Assembly (NCBI GenBank): GCA_949358305.1 | Contig: OX442314.1 | Coordinates: 6,699,087-6,763,086 of the forward strand | Origin: Strigamia acuminata | Lineage: Eukaryota; Arthropoda; Chilopoda; Geophilomorpha; Linotaeniidae | Direction: 5' to 3' | DNA length: 64,000 nt | Part shown: piece by piece, positions 30,105 through 50,028 of the stretch | Position numbering within the stretch: the first letter of the stretch is position 1 | How the letters are laid out: each line of letters starts with the position of its first letter | Position numbers and translations under genes: made by a program | The notes under the pieces: generated by a model | Told to the model about the DNA's origin: nothing | Seen by the model: the letters and a program-made list of their open reading frames with translations, nothing else | Database searches by the model: none

Positions 30105-30650
30105 CAGTAGAACGTCGATTATCGGAACATCGGTCATACAAACAACTGTTTTTTATATTTTTTATCGATTTCTTATCGAATTTTAATCGATTTGAACCGA
30201 TTTCTTATTAAATTTTAATCGATTTTAACCGATTTCTTATTGAATTTTAATCGATTTTAACCGATTTCTTATTGAATTTTAATCGATTTTAACCGATTTC
30301 TTATTGAATTTTAATCTATTTTAACCGATTTCTTATTGAATTTTAATCGATTTTAACCGATTTCTTATTGAATTTTAATCGATTTTAATCGATTTTAACC
30401 GTTTTATTATTGAATTCTAATCGCTTTTAACCGATTACTAATCAAATTTTAATCAATTTTAACCGATTTTTTATTGATTTTTAAAGATTTTAACCGATTT
30501 CTTATTGATTTTTAACGATATTAATCGATTTCTAACGATTTTAATCGATTTCTAACGTTTTTTAATCGATTACTAACTACTTTTAATCGATTTCTAACTA
30601 CTTTTAATCGATTTTTAAGAGATTTTTCTTTAATGTACTGTAAAAATGTA
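30105..30650 (+). repeat. 32-bp satellite array, possibly inside a pogo-like element
   Basis: TTTTAATCGATTTTAACCGA followed by TTTCTTATTGAA repeats about eight times from 30160 to 30480, then decays to 30620. The left boundary CAGTAGAACGTCGATTATCG looks like a pogo-type terminal repeat and the right side has GTACTGTA, so the array may have grown from an element's inner repeats. Confidence 0.65.
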
Positions 30651-32490: not shown

Positions 32491-32807
32491 TGTTAGAATT
32501 GCTTAGAAGCTTGTGTGAATTGCATAGATCTGCAATGGTGTGGGAAAAGTCCAAAGGTAAGAATCAGCCAGGTGTTCACAGGTGTGAATCTAAACATAGA
32601 GTGAGAGCTTTATTCTCAAGTCATGTGACTCCTTAAGTATACAGTGCCACCTATAGGCATATTACAACAGTTAAATATGTGAGACATTGCAAACACTCGT
32701 AATGTGAAAAGGCAAAAGCAAACAAATACACATGTAACAATTGAGAACATTATCGCTTGTTCATACGATAGAAATACATAGTAAATAATAAGTACGACAA
32801 GTTAACA
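32491..32807 (-). repeat. 3' LTR of copia-1
   Basis: TGTTAGAATTGCTTAG to ACGACAAGTTAACA. GGCCCCCTCG at 32811-32820 is the polypurine tract complement. Confidence 0.92.
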
Positions 32808-34532: not shown

Positions 34533-34551
34533 GTTGGTATTTGGCGATAAC

Positions 34552-35031
34552 TATTGATATGTAAAGTTTAGGGACAAGTGTTGTCACAGTCAGTTCCGAT
34601 TTACGATGGAGAGATTACTTCGCGCTTTTCCGAATTAGCGCGATTGTTACGCGATTAGTTTATCATTGTATTATGTCCCGGAATTGCCGATCAGTTGTTA
34701 TTGCTTTTTATCTAATGCATGTTTCGTTACCACAACTGATTTACCTTTATATAATGATTTGTCTAATTGTCGTCTGCTCTTATGAGCATTTTGTATTAAG
34801 AACTTGTTCTGTTTTAAGTTGTTTATGTTTAAACATTGTACAGGACAAATCAAATTGAATACAATAGTGATTTGTCCTTCTTATAGTTTGTGAGGTCAAA
34901 TAACCTCAAACCGTGTATACTGTATTACTTATGTTTTTCCACTGCATTAAAGATGGCGGCACAATTTGTGCTAGTAATGCAAAACCTTGAAAGTTGCTTC
35001 AACTCACCTTATTTAAGATTAAAGGCCAACA
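34552..35031 (+). repeat. 5' LTR of copia-2
   Basis: 480 bp. If the inverted fragment at 36752-36888 marks the RNA 5' end, U3 is 34552-34894 and R-U5 34895-35031. TTATAG at 34881 lies about 14 bp upstream of that point. Confidence 0.92.
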
Positions 35032-35032
35032 G

Positions 35033-35061
35033 TGGTAGCAGAGGATGGTTGCGATCCATCG
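35033..35061 (+). other. reverse-transcribed initiator tRNA-Met segment
   Basis: TGGTAGCAGAGG is the primer site. The next 17 bases ATGGTTGCGATCCATCG continue as the complement of the T arm of initiator tRNA-Met (as in vertebrates) instead of the element's own leader (CATGCGTTTC, seen at 36729-36738 reversed). All 29 positions match the tRNA I remember except one at 35051, which is tRNA nucleotide 58. Confidence 0.7.
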
Positions 35062-35570
35062 GCCTCGTATTCGGGCCCGAGGAAATCCAAATACTGGAAT
35101 GCGATCTCCTTTTCCGACAGAGTGATGTCAACGTCTTTCAGTTCTAATGCCTTCCTGTCCACTCTAGAAGTGAACACGACCATGTCGTCTCCCGGAAGCA
35201 TTTGGAGTTGTAAAAACTCCCGGCGCAGCCTGGCTTGTCGCGCCATCGTAGTGGGCTGGTACGCAGTTTTTAATGCGTCCCACGCTTCTTTTGCTGTTTT
35301 ATTTGCGACAGCAACTCCCTTCTGGGCTTCCGTACAGCCGAGACAGATGGAGGAACGTGCACGGGATTCTCGTGCCTGGAAATCACGCTTTTCCTTCGGG
35401 GAGGCCGTTGCGGCCAACGCTGGCTCGGTTCCAATTACGTGAGCCCAAACTCCTTGGTGCTCTAAGTAAAGCTGCATGTCGACGGCCCAAGACTCATAAT
35501 TTGCGCCGTCTAATTTGCGAATGTTTGCATTAAATGGCTTGGAAAAATCTTCCATCACTTCACTGGCCAT
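35062..35570 (-). pseudogene. copia-2 gag N-terminal part (inverted)
   Basis: Minus-strand start MASEVMEDFSKPFNANIRKL, then DGANYESWAVDMQLYLEHQG and a helical Gag core (EAWDALKTAYQPTTMARQ). Parallel to copia-3 Gag (NNYETWKVDVQLLLQELN). It stops at ...FLGPEYEA, exactly where the forward piece (36889) resumes with EALKSIVYHW, so no Gag residues are lost but the two parts are on opposite strands. Confidence 0.85.
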
Positions 35571-36751
35571 TATAAAATTCGTAGCACAAACACAAAAATC
35601 ACTCAAAAAACAACACTTGCAAAATATCACACTTAACCCACCAAAAATTAGGCGAAAAATAATGCAATTCCACCCGGGGTACAGCTCAATAAGTGAGCAC
35701 AACTTCTCCGACTAGTCGCTACAAGGACCTCCGACCGACACACCTGGGGTCGCGGGAAAATCCCCTTGCTTCGAGCAAGCCTAGCCGAAAATAAGACGAC
35801 ACTAGGCGAATGCCTAAAGGGTGCCGAATATATTAAAAGGCCCAAACAAAACCTTAAATTATACAGAGTTTCACGACAACCCAAAAAAAACACTTTTAAG
35901 ATGTTAAGATGGCAAGTTGATGTGTGAATTGCGGGAGGAATCGTCGCAAGTCCCACGCTGGCTGCTTGGAGCTCCCTCGGAGCACAGGCGCACACCGGGG
36001 TGCTAACCTGTGTGTGTGCGGCAATAATAACCTCGCACACTTCGCGCACGTCCGCGCCTTCGCAATTGCCGTATTGCAAATTGCGGTTCTTCAATGTCGA
36101 ATGCACGTGCGTATTCCGTACGCACGGGTTCTCCAACGTCGGTACGTCGTTCGAGACGTACGTGGTGAACGTTGATCGTTCGTGATGCGAAATATTCGCG
36201 ATGATCGCCGCCGCACTCGTATCTGGCGAAAAATGCACAAAATCGACGAACTCCGCCGATAAATTAGTGCTAATGCACGCAAAACACCTCACACTGGTGT
36301 AAATAATAAATACAGTTACTTCAAAACGCTCGTAGAATCCAAAAACCGCTAAAAAACGATGCTGGAAACAGCCAAAACACTTAACACCTGGTCGGCGCCA
36401 TCTTGGATTTCCGAAAATGTGATCCAGGTTGGGAAATACAGTTTCGCGTGGTTTTAGCAGTTTCCTTCTGCTAAATGCCGGATATTTTAACGAAAATATC
36501 TTGTCCTCACCGCTAGTGATGAAAACGCTGGCCGCTCCACGCTGAAAACCGCTCAAAATCGTCGAAAAACGAATAATTTCGACTCCGCCGACCCCCGATG
36601 TTGGCTGCGCTACTCGGCGACGTGCGGGAAACGTTCCGTCTCTCGTCCCCCTCCGTTTTCCGTGCGTCGTGGCCGCCCGCGACGTGGAAAATCGCCGAAA
36701 AATTGCTTTATACAATAGCAACTCACCAGAAACGCATGCCTCTGCTACCAC
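35571..36751 (-). other. inverted leader of copia-2 with long open frame
   Basis: Leader of about 1.2 kb between primer site and gag, in reverse. A 367-codon frame (35648-36751) is open through most of it, starting in the primer site. I see no homology. TTTCTG/GTGAGTTG at about 36732 is a good splice donor and might remove the leader. Confidence 0.45.
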
Positions 36752-36888
36752 TGTTGGCCTTTAATCTTAAATAAGGTGAGTTGAAGCAACTTTCAAGGTT
36801 TTGCATTACTAGCACAAATTGTGCCGCCATCTTTAATGCAGTGGAAAAACATAAGTAATACAGTATACACGGTTTGAGGTTATTTGAC
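36752..36888 (-). repeat. inverted R-U5 fragment of copia-2 LTR (137 bp)
   Basis: Exact-looking reverse complement of 34895-35031, followed outward by the primer site complement CCTCTGCTACCA (36739-36750). Confidence 0.9.
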
Positions 36889-37191
36889 GAGGCATTGAAA
36901 TCCATCGTGTACCACTGGGACAAAGCCGACTTTACGGTCGCAAAAGTTAAAGAAAGGCTCCTTGCTGAGTATAACAGGACCCATGGCGGGACTGCGCCAC
37001 AAGATGCACCTACATCAGGCGCTTACGCGACAAATCCGCAAAAGTCGCAGCAAAAAGGAATTGTTTGCTATAACTGCGGCGGAAAAGGCCACTTTTCGCG
37101 CGACTGCCCCTCTTCAAAGCAGGGCTTTACGATTGTGCCGACCAAATCTGCATCGAACATTTCTCAGTCTCGTGGGCGCGGCAAAGGCTGA
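36889..37191 (+). pseudogene. copia-2 gag C-terminal part with zinc knuckle
   Basis: Begins EALKSIVYHWDKADFTVAKV, then CYNCGGKGHFSRDC (C-x2-C-x4-H-x4-C), then an RG-rich linker ending in TGA at 37189-37191. The frame continues open past that TGA into pol. In copia-3 the aligned position is Arg within RGRGKGRG. Confidence 0.85.
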
Positions 37192-40100
37192 GGCCGTGCA
37201 CGGGGAAGGAAAGCTAACCTGAGCTCTTCTGAGGAACTGGAAGGATTTTACACATCGCTTCAGCAGACTATTGGACAATCAACGACAACCGTGTCTTCAT
37301 TTGTTACATCATCGGGGGTGCAAGACATGGCGTGGTATGTGGACACTGGCGCCACCGACCATTTTACCTTCACTAAACATGGTTTTGTGAACTATAAGCC
37401 TCTCTCGAATTATTCAGTGCGATTGGGTGAGGGTTCATCCAAAATTGACGGGGTGGGAGATATTAAATTGGAATCGAAAGATAAATCTCAAGGGCACCCA
37501 TTCATATTAAAGAATGTGTTTTACGCACCTAATTTCACTAAGAATTTGATTTCCCTCGGTCGCACTGATGAGGCTGGGTATGTAACCCGTGTTGGTGAAG
37601 GAAAGATGGTCATTTTCAAACAACGGATTACAGAACCAATATTGACAGCCATGCGTCAATCGGACAGAATGTACAAAAGTTCTTGTCAAATTGCGGTTCC
37701 TTCTGTAAATGCAAGTGCAATTCCGACGCATGCGGAAGCACCTGGCATAAGTAATCCGATTACTAATACATTGAATGTTACTGAAAGTATTAATGTTGTT
37801 AATAATAGCGTATCTAACCCTAACTCGAGTGAATGCGTAACGCAGGCGAGCGAAATTACGAAACCGTCTTACAGTGAAGTGTTGAACACATCAAAAGGCA
37901 AGAAGGGCATTAAAACTCCAGAGAAAATCGTTTCCAGCGCAACTGATGCGAGTGCGCTTCCGGCCAGCGGAATTAACAAGGTTAAGTCTAATGGGAAAGC
38001 GGATAAAGCTTTAGATATTAGTTACTGGCATGGCCGGATGGCACATTTACACACAAAGGGCATTGTTGACATGGAAAAGTCAACAGATATTTTTGGAGTG
38101 AAATTGTCTAATAGAGACATGGACCAGTGTGACGCGTGCATGAAAGCCAAGAAGACACGTGCTGGATTTCCTCCAATTGGACAAATTTTGACCAAAGGCA
38201 TATTGGACCTTGTACATATGGATGTTTGGGGGGCAAGCCAAACTAAAACCCTTGGGGGTGGGAGTTATTTCCTACTTATAGTGGACGATTATTCACGCTT
38301 TATGTGGATATACATCATGAAAAAGAAAAGTGATGTATTAGGGATTTTTAAGATTTGGCAAAGAGAGATTGAACGCTCCACATCTAAAAAGGTCAAAGCA
38401 ATACGAACTGATAAAGGGGGCGAATTTGTATCCAAGGAATGGGAAGATTATGCCCAACAAGAAGGAATTAAATGCGAGCGGACGAATGCCTATTCGCCCG
38501 AAATGAATTCTGTCGCAGAGCGGGCGAACCGCTTAATCTTAGAGGGGGTGAGAGCGATGTTAATTGAGTCTGAACTTCCCAAGAGATTGTGGGGAGAGTT
38601 AGCAGTAACCCTCGTTTATGTTAAGAACTTATACCCACATCCGAAATTGAACAATCGTTCCCCCTATAATGTATTTTATAACAAAAGGGCTTCAGTTAGG
38701 CATTTAAGATGCATTGGATCAAAATGTTATACACATATCCCTGCCCAACAACGCCATAGCAAATTGGAACCAAGAGCTTGGGTTGGAGCCCTTGTAGGTT
38801 ATTGTACTGACACAAAGGGATATCGCATATGGGACCCAACACGTAATAAGATTTTTGGGTCAAAACACGTGACCGTTAATGAAAATGAATATTGGCACGA
38901 GAAGGGGAACCACATTCCTAAAAACGGAAAGGAACAGACACAAAGTTTTGAATACTTTAATGGGAGTGACTTGGGACTTGAGTCAGACGAAGAAACCCCA
39001 ACTCCTGTGAGCTTGGCACCCGTTCATGTCCCTGTTCCAAAGCCAAGCCAACCTTTACCAGGTCAAGTTCCCCCAATTCAGGGTTTACCTGTTCAACAAG
39101 TCGTGCCACCTGTTTTAAAGCCGCTTCCACCAGCTGTGGATTTGACACTTGGTAAGCCCCCATTACCGACAACCCCTAAACCCCTGGTTTTTAAGAAACC
39201 AAAACTGATTGAATTTACTGGAGAACCAACTGACGAAGTCAGTGATGATGAAGAGGTTTTCCAAGAAGCACTGTTAGCTTCTCCAAACGTAAGAGGGGGT
39301 CAAGAGGCTGTAGCAGTTGGGGGTGTTCCTTTGTTAAAATTGAATATGAATGATTGGGATATCAGACCATATATTAGGCAAACAGGAAGGGATGCTGGGC
39401 AAACCTATGCGCATTATGTAGCGCCAGACAAGAAAAGGCTCCGCAGCAGAATTGAGGCATTGCATTGGTGCCAAGAGAACGGATACGAGTTTGAGGCAGA
39501 TCTGTTTGATTTCTCAGGGAAAACTCAGAATGAAGAACTTCCGAACCCATTTGCGGGCTTTGCGGGTTGTTGTGCGCTTGAGCCCAACACCTACGAGGAG
39601 GCTATAAAAGGCGAGCGAAAGTCCGAATGGGTTGGCGCAATGCAAGAAGAAATTGACATATTTAACGAAAGAAAAGTCTATGAGGAAGTTGATTGTGAGA
39701 AAGACCAACAATTGCTAGGCAGCAAATGGATCTATAAGATCAAGAGAGATAATACCGGGGAAATAAGACGTCATCGAGCGAGACTGGTCGCCCAAGGTTT
39801 CAAACAGCGACCGGGCATAGATTTCACCGAGGTGTTCTCACCAGTGGTGAATTTTGTTGTTATCTTGGTGTTATTTTGCATGTTGGTTGTTCTCATGAAT
39901 TGGAGAGACACACATGCGGATATAAAAGCCGCATATCTCTATGGAGACTTGGACGAAGTCCAATACATGGGAATTCCAAAAGGGTTTCAAACGCCGCAGA
40001 ATGTCGGCAAGTGCTGGAAGCTTTACAAAGCTTTATACGGCCTGCACCAGTCGGGCCGTATGTGGTTCGAAAAGTTGCACGACAGACTGTTGCACATAGG

Positions 40101-41118
40101 ATTTAAACCGGTCCCTGGTTTTAACTGTGTTTATTGCATGGACAGAGATGTAGTTTTAGTCGTGTATGTCGATGACTTAGTCATCTTTTCACGCAACGAA
40201 AAGATCGAGAAAGATGTCCTGTCCTGGATTACAGAACACTTTCAAATGGTAAACCTTGGGCCAGTGACCCATTTACTAGGCATAGAATTTACGCGTGTGA
40301 ATGGCAAGATCTTAGTGCATCAGCGCAAATATATCGAGAGATTATGCAACCATTTTAAAATCGATGGGTCGCATAAAGTTCATTTACCTGGGGCTGTAGG
40401 TACTATGATAATGGGGGTGAAAAAGGATGAACAACTTGACACCGTGTTCCCCTACAGATCGCTGGTTGGTAGTCTTCTGTTCTTGGCGTCGCGAACCAGG
40501 CCAGACATACTATTCTCCACCATCGTGCTCTCCCAATACAATGAGCGACATTCTCAGAGACATATTAATATGTTATTGCAGGTACTCAGGTACCTGAAAA
40601 GTACTGAGGATTATTGTATTGATCTCTCGAGATGCAAAAGCGCTTTGCTAACGGTATTTACCGATGCGTCATACGCTACGGATGTAGACCAACGAAGGAG
40701 TTTCGGAGGTCATGTAGTTTTCCTGGGCGGTGTTCCGGTCTCGTGGTCGTGTAGAAAGCAGAAGATGACCACGTTATCCGTGATGGAGTCAGAGTTTGTG
40801 GCCATCGTTGATGGCGTCAGGGAACTGATATGGCTTAAGAGGCTCTTCAACATGTCGGTAATGTTCGACTACTTTGGGAATTTGCAGCCCTGTGTCTTAG
40901 CTGATAGCACAGCGGCGATACAATATAGCAAGAACCGCGTAGAAAATAAAGCGAACAAACACATCGAGGTTCGCTTTCATTATTTACGCGATCTGTATGA
41001 AAGCAAGGTCTTCGACATCCGGCACGTTTCTGGAAGACTGAACGTGGCCGATTTATTAACCAAGTGGTTAGCCCGACCACGTTTGACTGAATTGTGTGGA
41101 CACATCTTTGACATGTGA
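37192..41118 (+). CDS. pol: copia-2 Pol (PR-IN-RT-RH)
   Basis: In frame with the gag part but for one TGA. From the codon at 37291 (1275 codons): protease WYVDTGATDHFT with D18; pre-integrase zinc motif (YWHGRMAHLH, CDACMKAKK); integrase D311 (HMDVWG), D374 (RTDKGGEF) and E410 (NSVAERANR); RT from KWIYKIKRDN with YVDDLV at 959-964; RNase H VFTDASYATD, VMESEFVAI and HIEVRFHYLRDL. All catalytic residues are present and there is no internal stop. Expression would need readthrough of TGA and a correctly placed gag, which this copy lacks. Confidence 0.93.
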   Translation, partial: GRARGRKANLSSSEELEGFYTSLQQTIGQSTTTVSSFVTSSGVQDMAWYVDTGATDHFTFTKHGFVNYKPLSNYSVRLGEGSSKIDGVGDIKLESKDKSQGHPFILKNVFYAPNFTKNLISLGRTDEAGYVTRVGEGKMVIFKQRITEPILTAMRQSDRMYKSSCQIAVPSVNASAIPTHAEAPGISNPITNTLNVTESINVVNNSVSNPNSSECVTQASEITKPSYSEVLNTSKGKKGIKTPEKIVSSATDASALPASGINKVKSNGKADKALDISYWHGRMAHLHTKGIVDMEKSTDIFGVKLSNRDMDQCDACMKAKKTRAGFPPIGQILTKGILDLVHMDVWGASQTKTLGGGSYFLLIVDDYSRFMWIYIMKKKSDVLGIFKIWQREIERSTSKKVKAIRTDKGGEFVSKEWEDYAQQEGIKCERTNAYSPEMNSVAERANRLILEGVRAMLIESELPKRLWGELAVTLVYVKNLYPHPKLNNRSPYNVFYNKRASVRHLRCIGSKCYTHIPAQQRHSKLEPRAWVGALVGYCTDTKGYRIWDPTRNKIFGSKHVTVNENEYWHEKGNHIPKNGKEQTQSFEYFNGSDLGLESDEETPTPVSLAPVHVPVPKPSQPLPGQVPPIQGLPVQQVVPPVLKPLPPAVDLTLGKPPLPTTPKPLVFKKPKLIEFTGEPTDEVSDDEEVFQEALLASPNVRGGQEAVAVGGVPLLKLNMNDWDIRPYIRQTGRDAGQTYAHYVAPDKKRLRSRIEALHWCQENGYEFEADLFDFSGKTQNEELPNPFAGFAGCCALEPNTYEEAIKGERKSEWVGAMQEEIDIFNERKVYEEVDCEKDQQLLGSKWIYKIKRDNTGEIRRHRARLVAQGFKQRPGIDFTEVFSPVVNFVVILVLFCMLVVLMNWRDTHADIKAAYLYGDLDEVQYMGIPKGFQTPQNVGKCWKLYKALYGLHQSGRMWFEKLHDRLLHIGFKPVPGFNCVYCMDRDVVLVVYVDDLVIFSRNEKIEKDVLSWITEHFQMVNLGPVTHLLGIEFTRVNGKILVHQRKYIERLCNHFKIDGSHKVHLPGAVGTMIMGVKKDEQLDTVFPYRSLVGSLLFLASRTRPDILFSTIVLSQYNERHSQRHINMLLQVLRYLKSTEDYCIDLSRCKSALLTVFTDASYATDVDQRRSFGGHVVFLGGVPVSWSCRKQKMTTLSVMESEFVAIVDGVRELIWLKRLFNMSVMFDYFGNLQPCVLADSTAAIQYSKNRVENKANKHIEVRFHYLRDLYESKVFDIRHVSGRLNVADLLTKWLARPRLTELCGHIFDM

Positions 41119-41137: not shown

Positions 41138-41617
41138 TATTGATATGTAAAGTTTAGGGACAAGTGTTGTCACAGTCAGTTCCGATTTACGATGGAGAGA
41201 TTACTTCGCGCTTTTCCGAATTAGCGCGATTGTTACGCGATTAGTTTATCATTGTATTATGTCCCGGAATTGCCGATCAGTTGTTATTGCTTTTTATCTA
41301 ATGCATGTTTCGTTACCACAACTGATTTACCTTTATATAATGATTTGTCTAATTGTCGTCTGCTCTTATGAGCATTTTGTATTAAGAACTTGTTCTGTTT
41401 TAAGTTGTTTATGTTTAAACATTGTACAGGACAAATCAAATTGAATACAATAGTGATTTGTCCTTCTTATAGTTTGTGAGGTCAAATAACCTCAAACCGT
41501 GTATACTGTATTACTTATGTTTTTCCACTGCATTAAAGATGGCGGCACAATTTGTGCTAGTAATGCAAAACCTTGAAAGTTGCTTCAACTCACCTTATTT
41601 AAGATTAAAGGCCAACA
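41138..41617 (+). repeat. 3' LTR of copia-2
   Basis: 480 bp, no difference from the 5' LTR noticed. Preceded by the polypurine tract AGAGGGGG. Confidence 0.93.
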
Positions 41618-42524
41618 ATAACTGTAGTTGAGCCGTGCAATCCTTTGCCCAATGTCCATGCTGGTTGCACCGAAAACACAGCCCCCGTCCCGTTGATCCG
41701 GTCGTGTTTCCTCGAAAATTTCCTCTTGTGTTTCTGCCTCCTCGATAGTTTGATTTGCTGCCCCTTTGTCCGCCCTGGTAGCCTCGGTTATTTTGTCCAA
41801 AGTTTCCTTGTTGTTGTTGTTGAGGTTTTGTGGAATTTTCACTATTTTTCGCGTTGGTAGAGCCCGTGCTGAAGGCGTCTATGATTGGCCCCTGGCCCAA
41901 ATCCCTTCTCTGCTGAGCAAGGCGCCCTTCTTCGGCAACAAGTTCCGCCTCCACTTTCTCCAAAGTGAAATTCACGTCCTCCCATCTGTAGATGGCCTGC
42001 ACTATGGATTGATATTCTTGGGGCAAATATCTGATAAGCTGGAACGCTTGGTACAAATTGTCCAATTGGTGCTTGACGTCGGCCAATTTTCTCGCGGCAT
42101 TCCTTATTTTTGCTGCAAATACTCCAATTGTTTCCGTTTGTGGGTCGTATTTTAAGTTGAAAAATTCGTCCAGTAATCGTATGATTCGTGCACGAGAAAC
42201 TGGCTCGAAATTCAGCTTTAGTGTGTCCCAAGCCTTCTTGGCGTCCTCGACCCCGCTGAGCAATTCGTGGTATTGCTCTTCTATAGAATAATAGATGAGG
42301 CTGAAAGCTCTTCCTTTCCGCAGTTTGAAATCCGAGCGATCCCGCCAAGACGCTCCGGGTGCCAATGGTTCTTCCGTCCCGTCCGTGAATGCCCAACAAC
42401 CGTGGTGCATTAACAGCACTTTTATCTGCTGTTTCCAGGTGTCGTAATTCGTCCTGTTCAATAGTGTTATTTTTCTTTCAAATTTGTCCGACTCCATTGT
42501 GTTTTCCTTTGTAAAAACTGGCAC
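41618..42524 (-). CDS. gag: copia-1 Gag
   Basis: About 300 codons from the ATG near 42524. The core has NRTNYDTWKQQIKVLLMHHG and AWDTLKLNFEPVSRARII, followed by a Gln/Asn/Gly-rich linker (QQQQQGNFGQNNRGYQGG) and a zinc knuckle CFRCNQHGHWAKDC. It ends by running into the copia-2 LTR (target duplication ATAAC); before that insertion it continued in frame into the protease (34532 down). An internal ATG at 42497 (MESDKFERK) is an alternative start. Confidence 0.88.
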
Positions 42525-45540: not shown

Positions 45541-45558
45541 TGGTAGCAGAGGGTGGTT
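45541..45558 (+). promoter_or_regulatory. primer binding site of copia-3
   Basis: TGGTAGCAGAGGGTGGTT matches the 3' 18 nt of initiator tRNA-Met with one mismatch, directly after the LTR. Confidence 0.8.
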
Positions 45559-45606: not shown

Positions 45607-48600
45607 ATGGCGTCGAAGGGAAGCGCGGCGTCGGCGGCGGCAGGAATCGCGCCGCTTGACAAAAACAACTACGAGACGTGGAAAGTGGACGTTCAATTGT
45701 TGCTTCAGGAACTCAATTTGTGGGGATTCCACGACGAAACAATTAAAGCGCCGCCGGATGGAACGTCGGCAGCGGATTTGGCGAAATACGAGAAGCGGAA
45801 AGCTCGTGCACGTGGAATTTTGTGCAACAGCGTCGCAACCAGACTGAAACCGTCGCTGTTAAAGCTGGATACATCGAAAGAGGTATGGGATTACCTGAAA
45901 AAGCTGCATGAACCCACGTCAGTCGCGAGAAATGCAAAGATTCTCGAGGATTTCTACACGATACGTTGCGGCGATAAAGAGGAAGTCGATACGTTTATCA
46001 CACGTGTCGAATTGGCAGCCGACGAATTGAAATCAATAAAACAAGAGCCGAATGACAAAGTAAAAGCCTATACTTTAATAAATAGAATTCGTAAAGACTA
46101 CGAACATCAAGTGCAGGCTATTTACCAGTGGAGTGACGGGGACTTCACGTTTGATAAAGTTTCCGAGGCATTGCTTGCCGAGAGTGCACGTCGTCGATAC
46201 ACGACAGGAACGAGTTCTCCAACGATGGAATCCAGTGCTCTCAGTGTCAGTGCTTCCAACAATCAGCAAGGATCGAGGAAACAAGACAACAAAGGAGGTA
46301 AGAGCAACTTTTCCAATATTTTATGTTACAATTGCCACGAAAAGGGACATATTGCACGGAACTGTCAAATGCCAAATACAAAACAACAGGACAACACTCG
46401 TGGACGTGGCAAAGGGCGCGGACAGCCCCAACGAGGCAAGGGTTTGCGTGGAGCCTTTTATGCATCATTTTTGGGGGAAAGTGTGTCCAATTCAATTGAA
46501 AAAGTATGTGATGAGGACGCATGGTTTGTGGATTCCGGCGCATCAGACCATGTATGTGGAAAATTGGAATATTTTCAGACTTTCAAGTCATTACCTCCAA
46601 CCAAATTACAATTGGGCCAGGGCACAGCTAGTATTACTGGCTGTGGTGCTGTAAACATCAGCACATTTGCGAATGGAATCCACAACCATGTGGACTTAAT
46701 AAATGTGTATTTTGTCAAGGGTTTCAAACGCAATTTAATTTCGAGTGCTAAAATTGATGAAGCAGGGTTCAATCAACACATTTACAATGGTGTGTTGAGA
46801 GTGTATTTACAAAACAACAAAGAGTGTTTATTGTTAGCGAACAGGCAGACAGATGGATTGTATCGTGTCCAAGGCCAGGTTCAAATGAATCAAAATGTGT
46901 CAAATACCATTGTTAATCCAATTTCACAAAATGTTACCCAGGTTTTACCATTGATTGAACAAAATGTTGTAAAACGAATTGAGCAATTGCAGAGCAAGAG
47001 TCCAAATTATGAAATTGTTTCCCAACAACCTGCACCTGTTGTGCAAAGTTTTGCAGTTTCGGTCGACACGTGGCATAAGCGTTTTGCCCACATGCATGTT
47101 CAGGGGCTAGCCACGTTGTTGAAAAGTGAGGAGACCACGGGATTAGATTTCACAGGAAATCTAAACAATTTTGCGTGCGATTCATGCAGAATTGCAAAAT
47201 CAACCCGTGCTAATTACAAAGTTAGAGATGATCGCGAGCGTGGGGAACCGCTTGAATTGTTGCATATAGACGTGTGGGGGCCCAACCCCACAACATCACT
47301 GGGTGGTGCACGTTATCTGTTGTGCATTGTTGATGATGCAACGCGTTTTTCGTGGGTTTATCCTATGAAAACAAAAGATGAGGCCTTTCCGATTTTTAAA
47401 ACATTCTTGGCGCGCGTTGAGCGCCGTTCAAATAGGAAAGTTCATGAAATTAGAACGGATCGGGGTGGAGAGTTTTGCAGCAAGGAATTTGATTCTTTTC
47501 TGCAACAAAAGGGCATTGGTGCCCAAAGAACAAACCCGTACTCAGCACAAATGAACGGCATTGCGGAGCGATTAAACCGCTCAATATTAAACAATGTGCG
47601 CGCAATAATTGAGGATACAAATTTGCCGTGGATTTTGTGGGCAGAATTGGCTGTCAGCTACATTTATTTAAAGAACAGGTATCCACATTTATTTGCGAAG
47701 GGACAAATTCCTTACATTAAATTCAGACAAAGAAGCATGGCAGTGAAGCATTTACGTGCAATTGGCTCGTTATGTTTCGTACATATTCCCAAACCCAAAA
47801 GAGCTAGCAAACTCGACTCAAGAGCATGGAAGGGCATACTGGTGGGGTATGCATTCACTACAAGGGGTTATAGGGTTTGGAATCCAATTACAAATGAGGT
47901 AGTCGAAACAAAACATTTAGTCATTGATGAGTCCAGGGACTGGAAGTCCTTTAATGCTGTGGACATAAATGTTCAACAACCAGATTTGGATACAAATGGT
48001 TACGATTCGGATGAGAGTGGGTTGTATCAACAGGAATTCCATGATCCGATGCCACCCACTACACCACCGGGTTCGCCTCCCGTTATGCGTAAAGTCCCAG
48101 CACCCCTCGCGCAGGTCCCACCACAAGTGGGACCAATGGCCCAAGCGCCTATTCCCACACAGCCAGTCCAAGGGGGGGCAAAAGTTAAGAAACCTCGAAT
48201 TGCCACCCGAACCACAGATGCAGATGGGTGGGATAGGGAGCAAGTGACCAGGCAAGGAGGTGTTACAGCTGGGAGAATTGATGTGCTGTTTTACGCACCA
48301 GATGGCACAGGGCCTTTGAAAACAAAGAAAGATGTTGAAGCGTATTGCCGGGGAAATAGGATATTTTTCAATCCATTAAAATTCGATTTCACCCCAGTGA
48401 AGGAGCCCATCAATACAATCGAGCAATCGTCCGACGAGGAACCAATGGAGACGGTTCTCACTGCAACGACACCTCCCATCAGCGTGTATTGTGCTGTCAC
48501 GCAGCCCAAAACATACGAGGAGGCAGCTTCCTCGCCTCAATCTAAAGAATGGAGAGAGGCGATGGAAGAGGAGATTGAAACATTACAAGAAAGAGAAGTG

Positions 48601-50028
48601 TACGAGGAGGTGCCGCGACCGAAGGCCAAGGTCTTGGGTCACAAATGGGTATACAAGTTGAAACCAGACGAAGATGGCAATATTGTGAGATATCGTGCCA
48701 GGGTAGTCGCACAAGGGTTTAGACAAACGCAAGGTGTGGACTACACAGAAGTGTTCTCGCCGGTCGTAAATTTCACATTAATCCGACTGTTTTTCTGTTT
48801 ATTGGTGATCTTGCGTGGCTGGGTCGACGTCCATCTGGACGTCAAATGCGCGTACCTTTACGGCAAATTAGATTGTCCCATACATATGGAGATCCCGCAA
48901 GGATTCAAAACACCGGGAACGGACAATGTTTGGCTCCTGTACAAATCATTGTACGGATTACACCAATCCGGCAGGATGTGGTTCGAGGAGTTAAATACCA
49001 GTCTGCTGGATTTGGGTTTCACCAAAGTGATTGGATGCAATTGCGTTTACACTTTTGATCGCAATGCCGTCCTCTTGATATACGTGGACGACATGATTTT
49101 GTTTGCAAAAGATGTGGAAACCCAGAGCGCCCTAATTGACCTCATTAAACAAAAATTCAACATTGTGAACTTGGGTCGGATCACAAAATTGCTAGGTGTG
49201 AAATTTTATCGTGAGAATGGGAAGGTATGCCTCCACCAGAAGCATTTCATAGATAAGTTGGCTGTGAAATTCAACTTGACTCAAAATACGAAAGTGAGAG
49301 TTCCTATTGCAGCCGGGTCAACGTTTAATCACAATGTTAAAGAAGTTGATCCGAACTCAGACTTTCCATATCGTTCGCTGGTCGGGAGTTTGATGTTCCT
49401 CGCGTCCAGGACAAGGCCGGACATTTTATATTCCACAATATACATGTCCCAATTTAACACAAGCTACACTCAGAAACACGTCAAGGCTCTTGTGCAAATT
49501 GCTCAATACGTTGTGAATACTAAAAATTATTGTGTTAATTTATCAAAGTGTATAAATACAGATTTGCGCATTTACACCGATGCTTCCTGGGCGACGGACC
49601 TCCATCACTGCAAGAGTTTTGGGGGGTTTGCATTGTTTATGGGCGATGCCCTCATTAGTTGGGGTTGTCGGAAACAAAGTTCCGTCGCGTGCAGTACTAT
49701 GGAGGCGGAATATTTGGCGCTAGTTCACGCCGTCCAGGAAGGATATTGGCTATCCAGCATATTCGAAAGCTGTGTGCTTTTGGATTATATTAATATGCCA
49801 ATAGTGTATTCGGATTCGTTGTCATCGATACAATTTGTGGAAAATGATCTTGAAAATTCTAAAACTAAACATATCCGAATACGCTATTGCTTCTTAAGAG
49901 ACTGGTTCGAGAAAAAGTATTTCTCAATTGAGAAAATTCCGACAAAATGGAATTTAGCAGATTTGTTCACAAAGTGGCTGCCTCAGGACCGGTTAAAAGA
50001 CTTGTGTGCAGATATGTTGGATGTTTGA
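45607..50028 (+). CDS. gag-pol: copia-3 Gag-Pol polyprotein
   Basis: 1473 codons in one frame, the typical copia arrangement. Gag core NNYETWKVDVQLLLQELN; zinc knuckle CYNCHEKGHIARNC at 240-253; RG-rich linker; protease WFVDSGASDHVCG with D309; pre-integrase zinc motif (WHKRFAHMH, CDSCRIAKS); integrase D555 (HIDVWGPN), D618 (RTDRGGEF) and E654 (NGIAERLNR); RT from HKWVYKLKPDEDG with YVDDMI at 1159-1164; RNase H IYTDASWATDL, TMEAEYLAL and HIRIRYCFLRDW. No stop, frameshift or missing catalytic residue seen. ATG at 45607 is 49 bp after the primer site. The order PR-IN-RT-RH defines Ty1/copia. Confidence 0.96.
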   Translation: MASKGSAASAAAGIAPLDKNNYETWKVDVQLLLQELNLWGFHDETIKAPPDGTSAADLAKYEKRKARARGILCNSVATRLKPSLLKLDTSKEVWDYLKKLHEPTSVARNAKILEDFYTIRCGDKEEVDTFITRVELAADELKSIKQEPNDKVKAYTLINRIRKDYEHQVQAIYQWSDGDFTFDKVSEALLAESARRRYTTGTSSPTMESSALSVSASNNQQGSRKQDNKGGKSNFSNILCYNCHEKGHIARNCQMPNTKQQDNTRGRGKGRGQPQRGKGLRGAFYASFLGESVSNSIEKVCDEDAWFVDSGASDHVCGKLEYFQTFKSLPPTKLQLGQGTASITGCGAVNISTFANGIHNHVDLINVYFVKGFKRNLISSAKIDEAGFNQHIYNGVLRVYLQNNKECLLLANRQTDGLYRVQGQVQMNQNVSNTIVNPISQNVTQVLPLIEQNVVKRIEQLQSKSPNYEIVSQQPAPVVQSFAVSVDTWHKRFAHMHVQGLATLLKSEETTGLDFTGNLNNFACDSCRIAKSTRANYKVRDDRERGEPLELLHIDVWGPNPTTSLGGARYLLCIVDDATRFSWVYPMKTKDEAFPIFKTFLARVERRSNRKVHEIRTDRGGEFCSKEFDSFLQQKGIGAQRTNPYSAQMNGIAERLNRSILNNVRAIIEDTNLPWILWAELAVSYIYLKNRYPHLFAKGQIPYIKFRQRSMAVKHLRAIGSLCFVHIPKPKRASKLDSRAWKGILVGYAFTTRGYRVWNPITNEVVETKHLVIDESRDWKSFNAVDINVQQPDLDTNGYDSDESGLYQQEFHDPMPPTTPPGSPPVMRKVPAPLAQVPPQVGPMAQAPIPTQPVQGGAKVKKPRIATRTTDADGWDREQVTRQGGVTAGRIDVLFYAPDGTGPLKTKKDVEAYCRGNRIFFNPLKFDFTPVKEPINTIEQSSDEEPMETVLTATTPPISVYCAVTQPKTYEEAASSPQSKEWREAMEEEIETLQEREVYEEVPRPKAKVLGHKWVYKLKPDEDGNIVRYRARVVAQGFRQTQGVDYTEVFSPVVNFTLIRLFFCLLVILRGWVDVHLDVKCAYLYGKLDCPIHMEIPQGFKTPGTDNVWLLYKSLYGLHQSGRMWFEELNTSLLDLGFTKVIGCNCVYTFDRNAVLLIYVDDMILFAKDVETQSALIDLIKQKFNIVNLGRITKLLGVKFYRENGKVCLHQKHFIDKLAVKFNLTQNTKVRVPIAAGSTFNHNVKEVDPNSDFPYRSLVGSLMFLASRTRPDILYSTIYMSQFNTSYTQKHVKALVQIAQYVVNTKNYCVNLSKCINTDLRIYTDASWATDLHHCKSFGGFALFMGDALISWGCRKQSSVACSTMEAEYLALVHAVQEGYWLSSIFESCVLLDYINMPIVYSDSLSSIQFVENDLENSKTKHIRIRYCFLRDWFEKKYFSIEKIPTKWNLADLFTKWLPQDRLKDLCADMLDV

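Follow-up and report, generated by a model that had tools for sequence, protein, structure and literature searches.

Initiator tRNA-Met (tRNA-iMet) is known as a primer among Ty1/copia elements. To our knowledge, most evidence for the read-through of a primer tRNA past its methylated A58 (m1A58) comes from work in vitro and in cell culture. For HIV-1 and its primer tRNA-Lys3, a review describes arrest of plus-strand strong-stop synthesis at m1A58, and synthesis past nucleotide (nt) 58 when the m1A58 enzyme is mutated (PMC13191261). Set beside that account, the copies described here are alike in that the tRNA is copied from its 3' end and copies to at least nt 59 are common, but they differ in that read-throughs have become integrated and persist in the genome, some of them altered at nt 58 and many of them ending at nt 10-13. 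The joining of a reverse-transcribed host tRNA to the DNA of a retroelement also has precedents in PMC12220202, which recounts the finding by Colicelli and Goff of a tRNA-Gly between MMLV LTRs and itself reports tRNA-Gly beside HIV proviruses in cell culture, said to be self-primed. Unlike the HIV tRNA-Gly, as far as that source describes it, the tRNA in the present case is the element's own primer, is contiguous with the element's own U5 and occurs at several genomic loci. A third likeness is offered by the Helenus TRIMs, LTR elements holding a tRNA-like sequence which, according to PMC10886601, lies within the LTR and derives from a SINE insertion, whereas here a mature tRNA copy with CCA is located after the LTR. 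In the open-access literature we found no report of germline LTR elements archiving tRNA-primer copies with nt 58 errors and a far end at nt 10. Arrest at m1A58, read-through and tRNA copies in retroviral DNA are thus already known; what appears to be new is a genome-wide germline record with nt 58 errors, in which integrated elements carry tRNA sequence from beyond the primer site.

The window, by which we mean the whole stretch of 64,000 nucleotides that was analysed, corresponds to C1:6699087-6763086 of the 237.5-Mb genome of Strigamia acuminata. It contains a copy of an element that we call copia-2, inserted in a second copia element of opposite strand with LTR starts at 32491 and 43724. 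The copy is bounded by the target-site duplication ATAAC (34547-34551 and 41618-41622) and, on the plus strand, by a left LTR of 480 bp (34552-35031) that is identical at all 480 positions to the right LTR (41138-41617). Since the LTRs are identical and the 5-bp duplication is intact, a complete DNA must have been made and integrated normally. Pfam finds Retrotran_gag_2, zf-CCHC, rve in 37291-38601 and RVT_2 across 38602-41118 (pol, plus strand, 37291-41118, searched by profile in three pieces), and the copia-type gag, the integrase ahead of RVT_2, the two LTRs and the 5-bp duplication all place the element in Ty1/copia. Where this copy departs from the group is in lacking an uninterrupted gag-pol after the primer site, 35062-36888 being inverted; five relatives (L002-L005 and L007) align across the break point with no inversion.

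Three further features of the window and its relatives may be recorded here. An MBD (methyl-CpG binding domain) profile of Pfam lies ahead of RVT_2 in copia polyproteins, at 38602-39900 in the window (E 2e-4) and in the loci L043 (1e-9) and L031 (5e-6); the primer site of a third element, matching to nt 59, stands at 45541-45558 just upstream of an open reading frame of 1473 codons (45607-50028); and a tandem repeat with a 32-bp period occupies 30127-30634.

A single G separates the left LTR from a 34-nt complement of tRNA-iMet (35033-35066, plus strand, nt 76-43), in which 33 of 34 bases match and the ordinary primer-binding site takes up the first 12 nt. Position 35033 pairs with A76 and 35051, the sole mismatch, with nt 58, where a G in the DNA makes the A58 of the tRNA read as C. 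The tRNA-iMet genes of the host read ...CCCAGAGGCCG[A/G]TGGATCGAAACCA[T/C]CCTCTGCT and end in ...CCCAGAGGCCGATGGATCGAAACCATCCTCTGCT, or in a variant with G-C in the T stem. Fifteen of them were read (13 places lacking CCA, together with L083 and L088); all 15 have A58 and are called tRNA-Met(cat) by ARAGORN, which did not call L022, L024, L027 or L034 as a gene, and other changes are carried by L083, L088 and L012. Whereas the usual vertebrate sequence has U at nt 47, the host genes have C, so that the match extends as far as 35066 (nt 43) with no further mismatch. The sequence-only reading had placed the complement of initiator tRNA-Met at 35033-35061, with 35051 as its one exception and as nt 58; alignment to the host genes, 15 sequences without several common differences and none with C58, confirms that position and extends the match beyond what had been claimed. 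Past the 12-nt primer site, 22 nt equal the host tRNA-iMet with one mismatch, for which the chance at a given site is, by an arithmetic estimate, about 22*3/4^22. The CCA of a tRNA is added after transcription; its presence at the 35033 end, contiguous with the element's own U5, therefore means that the template was a mature tRNA and no gene. Scans of the window for tRNA and Rfam families gave no match, as expected for a fragment. It is close to certain that these 34 nt are copied primer tRNA.

That they replace the normal leader had also been proposed, on the ground that the inverted copy retains it, and this is borne out by the relatives. From 36738 downwards, the inverted copy continues after its 12-nt site with CATGCG..., and five of the seven relatives fetched (L002-L005, L007) have CATGAG, CATGCG or ATTACG there, the bases of 35033-35066 being found in none of these five ordinary leaders; the remaining two, L006 and L008, are themselves aberrant. 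A query made of primer site plus leader aligned over its whole length at 23 places besides the window (40 scored of 64 candidates). Twenty places matched a 30-nt tRNA pattern; among them, the junction with this gag sequence occurs only in the window, and G58 (in the DNA strand) in three, namely the window, L027 and L034.

Beyond the tRNA complement, the minus strand carries the N-terminal part of gag (35062-35570, start codon read by eye; positions 1-139 of 172 of the Retrotran_gag_2 profile; 95% to L008 and 97% to L002), the leader (35571-36738), the inverted copy of the ordinary 12-nt primer-binding site (36739-36750) and the 3' 137 bp of the LTR (36752-36888), which we take as R-U5 and which end at LTR position 34895. 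With the primer site included, this inverted arm agrees with the left LTR at every one of 150 nt, 34895-35044 and 36739-36888 being 100% complementary. The C-terminal part of gag with its zinc knuckle then resumes on the plus strand (36889-37191) where the inverted part stopped. Short overlaps mark both junctions: GCCTC (35062-35066, J1) is common to the tRNA complement and antisense gag, and AC (36887-36888, J2) to gag and the end of the inverted LTR. The inverted part of gag stops, and the sense part starts, at one and the same point of the gene, where the relatives L002 and L003 read ...GAATACGAGGC... across the break; if GCCTC at J1 is assigned to the tRNA and AC at J2 is counted as LTR, the cut falls between AATAC and GAGGC and gag neither loses nor gains a base. 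Given this clean cut and the identical LTR arm, one RNA and one tRNA can supply everything in one round of reverse transcription. A template switch at a CCTC shared by tRNA and gag had been suspected earlier; the overlap is in fact the 5 nt GCCTC, the gag homology of the relatives begins within it, at 35062, and both this start and the second case described below, from a sister subfamily, support the switch.

We consider it probable that 35033-35066 was reverse-transcribed from the initiator tRNA-Met with which copia-2 had been primed, that synthesis passed m1A58 with a misincorporation and then switched to genomic RNA, and that the product was integrated. In such a scheme, plus-strand strong-stop DNA would copy U3-R-U5 and then the tRNA still attached to the minus strand, and rather than stopping at nt 59 the plus strand would pass nt 58 (m1A), inserting G, and extend to about nt 43. 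Its 3' end, GCCTC, would displace the end of the minus strand from its pairing with GAGGC in the gag region of the genomic RNA, and the displacing strand would copy that RNA to its 5' end (R). The two 3' ends could then meet over AC/GT and extend on each other, giving a double-stranded DNA with two good LTR ends that integrase would insert normally. The order of these steps, from takeover of the minus-strand end in gag through copying to the RNA 5' end to the meeting of the 3' ends, is the simplest path, to which we give roughly even chances; we infer the order of the two switches and the identity of 34895 as the RNA 5' end.

The second case is L027/L093 (C13:8702738), a member of a sister subfamily whose U5 ends differently. 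Inside its own pol, in antisense, it carries about 30 nt of filler, a 75-nt piece of U5, tRNA complement from nt 76 to nt 10 and then antisense pol, the last two overlapping by 3 nt (CGC), and like the window it has G in the DNA at nt 58. As L093 contains only these 75 nt of U5, its comparison with the R end in the window has no bearing on 34895 as RNA start. The window and L027 thus have antisense of their own RNA beyond the tRNA copy, and other loci show other outcomes. In L008, the primer-site copy ends at nt 59 and is joined to a distant part of the leader (a leader deletion), which we read as the usual stop followed by a wrong transfer. In L022 and its copies, the tRNA copy is flanked on either side by a repeated 592-bp block, an arrangement that we read as LTR-tRNA-LTR; in L031 the tRNA copy is followed by a second primer site; in L026 there follows, after about 130 nt, an open frame with Retrotran_gag_2; in L043 the copy lies between pol domains, with Pol_BBD upstream and RVT_2 downstream; and in L039 an 18-nt copy precedes a longer one. 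L038 (C1:32335121-32335244) has two inverted tRNA copies with matching flanks, both with T at nt 58, and looks like a fold-back product. This variety fits a plus-strand 3' end that has gone past its stop and needs another template.

The whole genome was searched with a pattern of nt 46-76 (N at 58, at most 3 mismatches). Among 36 places, 13 lacked CCA (genes) and 23 had it. The latter reduce to 18 loci when the four near-identical C6 copies, the tandem pair L029/L030 and the inverted pair L038 are each counted once, a merging that removed L030 (no mismatch) and three of the C6 copies, among them L090 with a single D-arm change. In the tRNA sense, nt 58 is A at 13 loci, C at three (window, L027, L034), G at one (L031) and T at one (L038), and it is therefore changed in 5/18, against four mismatches at about 890 other positions (908 copied nt): two in L035, one in L039 (nt 57) and one in L040 (nt 68). 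The excess is significant (Fisher, 2e-7; 7e-6 without the window), with the qualification that the first 12 nt are kept by function, which makes the background mismatch rate somewhat lower. Counting L034, L036 and L040 as three independent events was rejected, their leaders being related downstream of the tRNA copy; without these and the window, three of 14 loci are changed, against three other mismatches (Fisher, 1.4e-4). Adding five shorter copies (L041 and L097 with T, the latter read by eye because scoring ended at nt 59; L094, L095 and L096 with A), drawn from the one-mismatch and exact places among the matches listed (547 places in all), brings the count to 7/23, from which L098/L099 and 69 places with a GATAGC-type leader among 100 matches listed were left out; compared with the tRNA genes alone (0/15) the difference is weak (p=0.03).

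Changes thus cluster at nt 58 across separate loci, which lends statistical support to the earlier proposal that reverse transcriptase had read through a modified base, and the change at nt 58 probably records misincorporation at m1A58, a methyl group that we take over from other species. Human iMet carries m1G9, m2G10, m2G26, t6A37, m7G46, D47, m5C48 and m1A58, with G9 almost fully modified (PMC7293042), and a zebrafish study shows, for an example tRNA, high RT error at m1G9 and m1A58 (PMC11417395). As nt 58 is changed in only 5/18 loci, either the methyl is missing from some tRNAs or it is often read correctly.

For a single base at a single locus chance is always possible, and 35051 could be an ordinary mutation after insertion that fell on nt 58 by accident. 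This we regard as the least likely account of all, for LTRs identical over 480 bp leave few mutations to be expected, and nt 58 is changed in four of the 17 other loci against four changes in about 857 other positions. Hardly more credible is an origin of the inversion in chromosomal rearrangement or faulty assembly instead of reverse transcription: fold-back errors can create inverted repeats, but neither process gives a CCA-ended tRNA copy between LTR and gag, the LTRs and target-site duplication are intact, and CCA-ended copies are found at 17 other loci.

For the two copia-2 loci with G58, a common cause apart from the tRNA is conceivable, and the alternative that deserves most attention, improbable as we hold it to be, is that G58 was carried over from another element, copia-2 RNA having recombined at the shared primer site with an RNA that has a TGGTAGCAGAGGRTGGTTGCTATC leader. 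G does stand at the nt-58 place in the ordinary leader of other elements, of the GATAGC type (at least 69 places, among 100 matches listed; seven read in detail), if not in the window's family as read; L034 has a near-full tRNA complement with G58 that matches L027 from CCA to nt 10; and past the primer site the leader of L066 is similar to the tRNA complement (p=0.0004 against shuffled sequences), a similarity for which the same comparison in L068 gave no support (p=0.19). Yet the window continues with CGATCCATCGGCCTC like the tRNA, where the leader of the other elements has CTATC, the U5 joined to the tRNA in the window and in L027 is that of their own subfamily, as in a natural chimera of tRNA and minus strand, and other loci have G or T at nt 58 in the tRNA sense. 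Of the seven elements with this ordinary leader (L066-L070, L072 and L073; TGGTTGCTATC), L066 retains further pieces of tRNA complement in its leader, and most carry an inverted primer-site copy, CCTCTGCTACAA, at the end of the sequence that precedes the site.

The far ends of the copied tRNA may point to a second modified base. Over the 18 loci, the last nt copied is 10 at four (L022, L027, L034 and L040), and 11, 12, 13, 13, 18, 19, 33, 42, 43, 43, 44, 44, 46 and 49 at the others, where L029 represents the tandem pair (L030 ends at 41) and a short overlap with the next template may move an end by a few nt. Thus 8/18 loci end at nt 10-13 (5/15 without three related leaders) and 0/18 pass nt 10; six end at nt 42-46, or five if L032 is moved, which is scored to 42, yet beyond a gap resumes the tRNA complement as far as about nt 11. 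A wall at m1G9 would produce an end at nt 10. Primer sites matching the middle of tRNA-iMet (nt ~40 to 10), which presumably use its 5' half as Drosophila copia does, end in CTGCGC, at nt 10, in four of the six families inspected (L074, L076, L087 and L019), while L089 stops a base earlier and L085, with one change, is ambiguous; one such family is apparently of high copy number, with 148 pattern places, tRNA genes and CCA-type copies included.

At the other end of the range, exact matches to nt 76-59 number 1133 genome-wide, read-throughs included, the end having been read for few (L008 and window 45541). Tandem primer sites were also seen. L094 (C1:32326383-32326536) consists of 17-nt units (nt 76-60) in at least nine copies, as if the reverse transcriptase, on reaching the inner ACCA, had slipped back to the terminal one, and tandem complements of the 18-nt primer site occur at C1:12832459-12832686 and C1:32304152-32304217, with spacings of 30 nt and 24 nt. 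Since the spacings among the matches listed are 17, 21, 24 and 30, with 17-nt units in L094 and an 18-nt unit in L039, and are thus not all 17-18, stalling at nt 59 as the cause of the tandems stays a suggestion.

Taken together, these observations could be accommodated by a model, which we would neither favor nor discount, in which the genome preserves, as DNA, the encounters of reverse transcriptases with the modified bases of one tRNA, m1A58 setting the usual 18-nt primer site and leaving substitutions when passed, and m1G9 setting the nt 10 ends of both the read-throughs and the 5'-half primer sites. If this is true, the modification state of a tRNA can be read from genomes, and primer-site length is written by tRNA methylation and is no trait of the element. 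Integrated copies with position-specific errors would make both the fidelity of reverse transcriptases on modified bases and the modification state of tRNA in the germline accessible through DNA alone, in any genome rich in LTR elements; they also offer a concrete route by which LTR elements may acquire inverted 5' ends.
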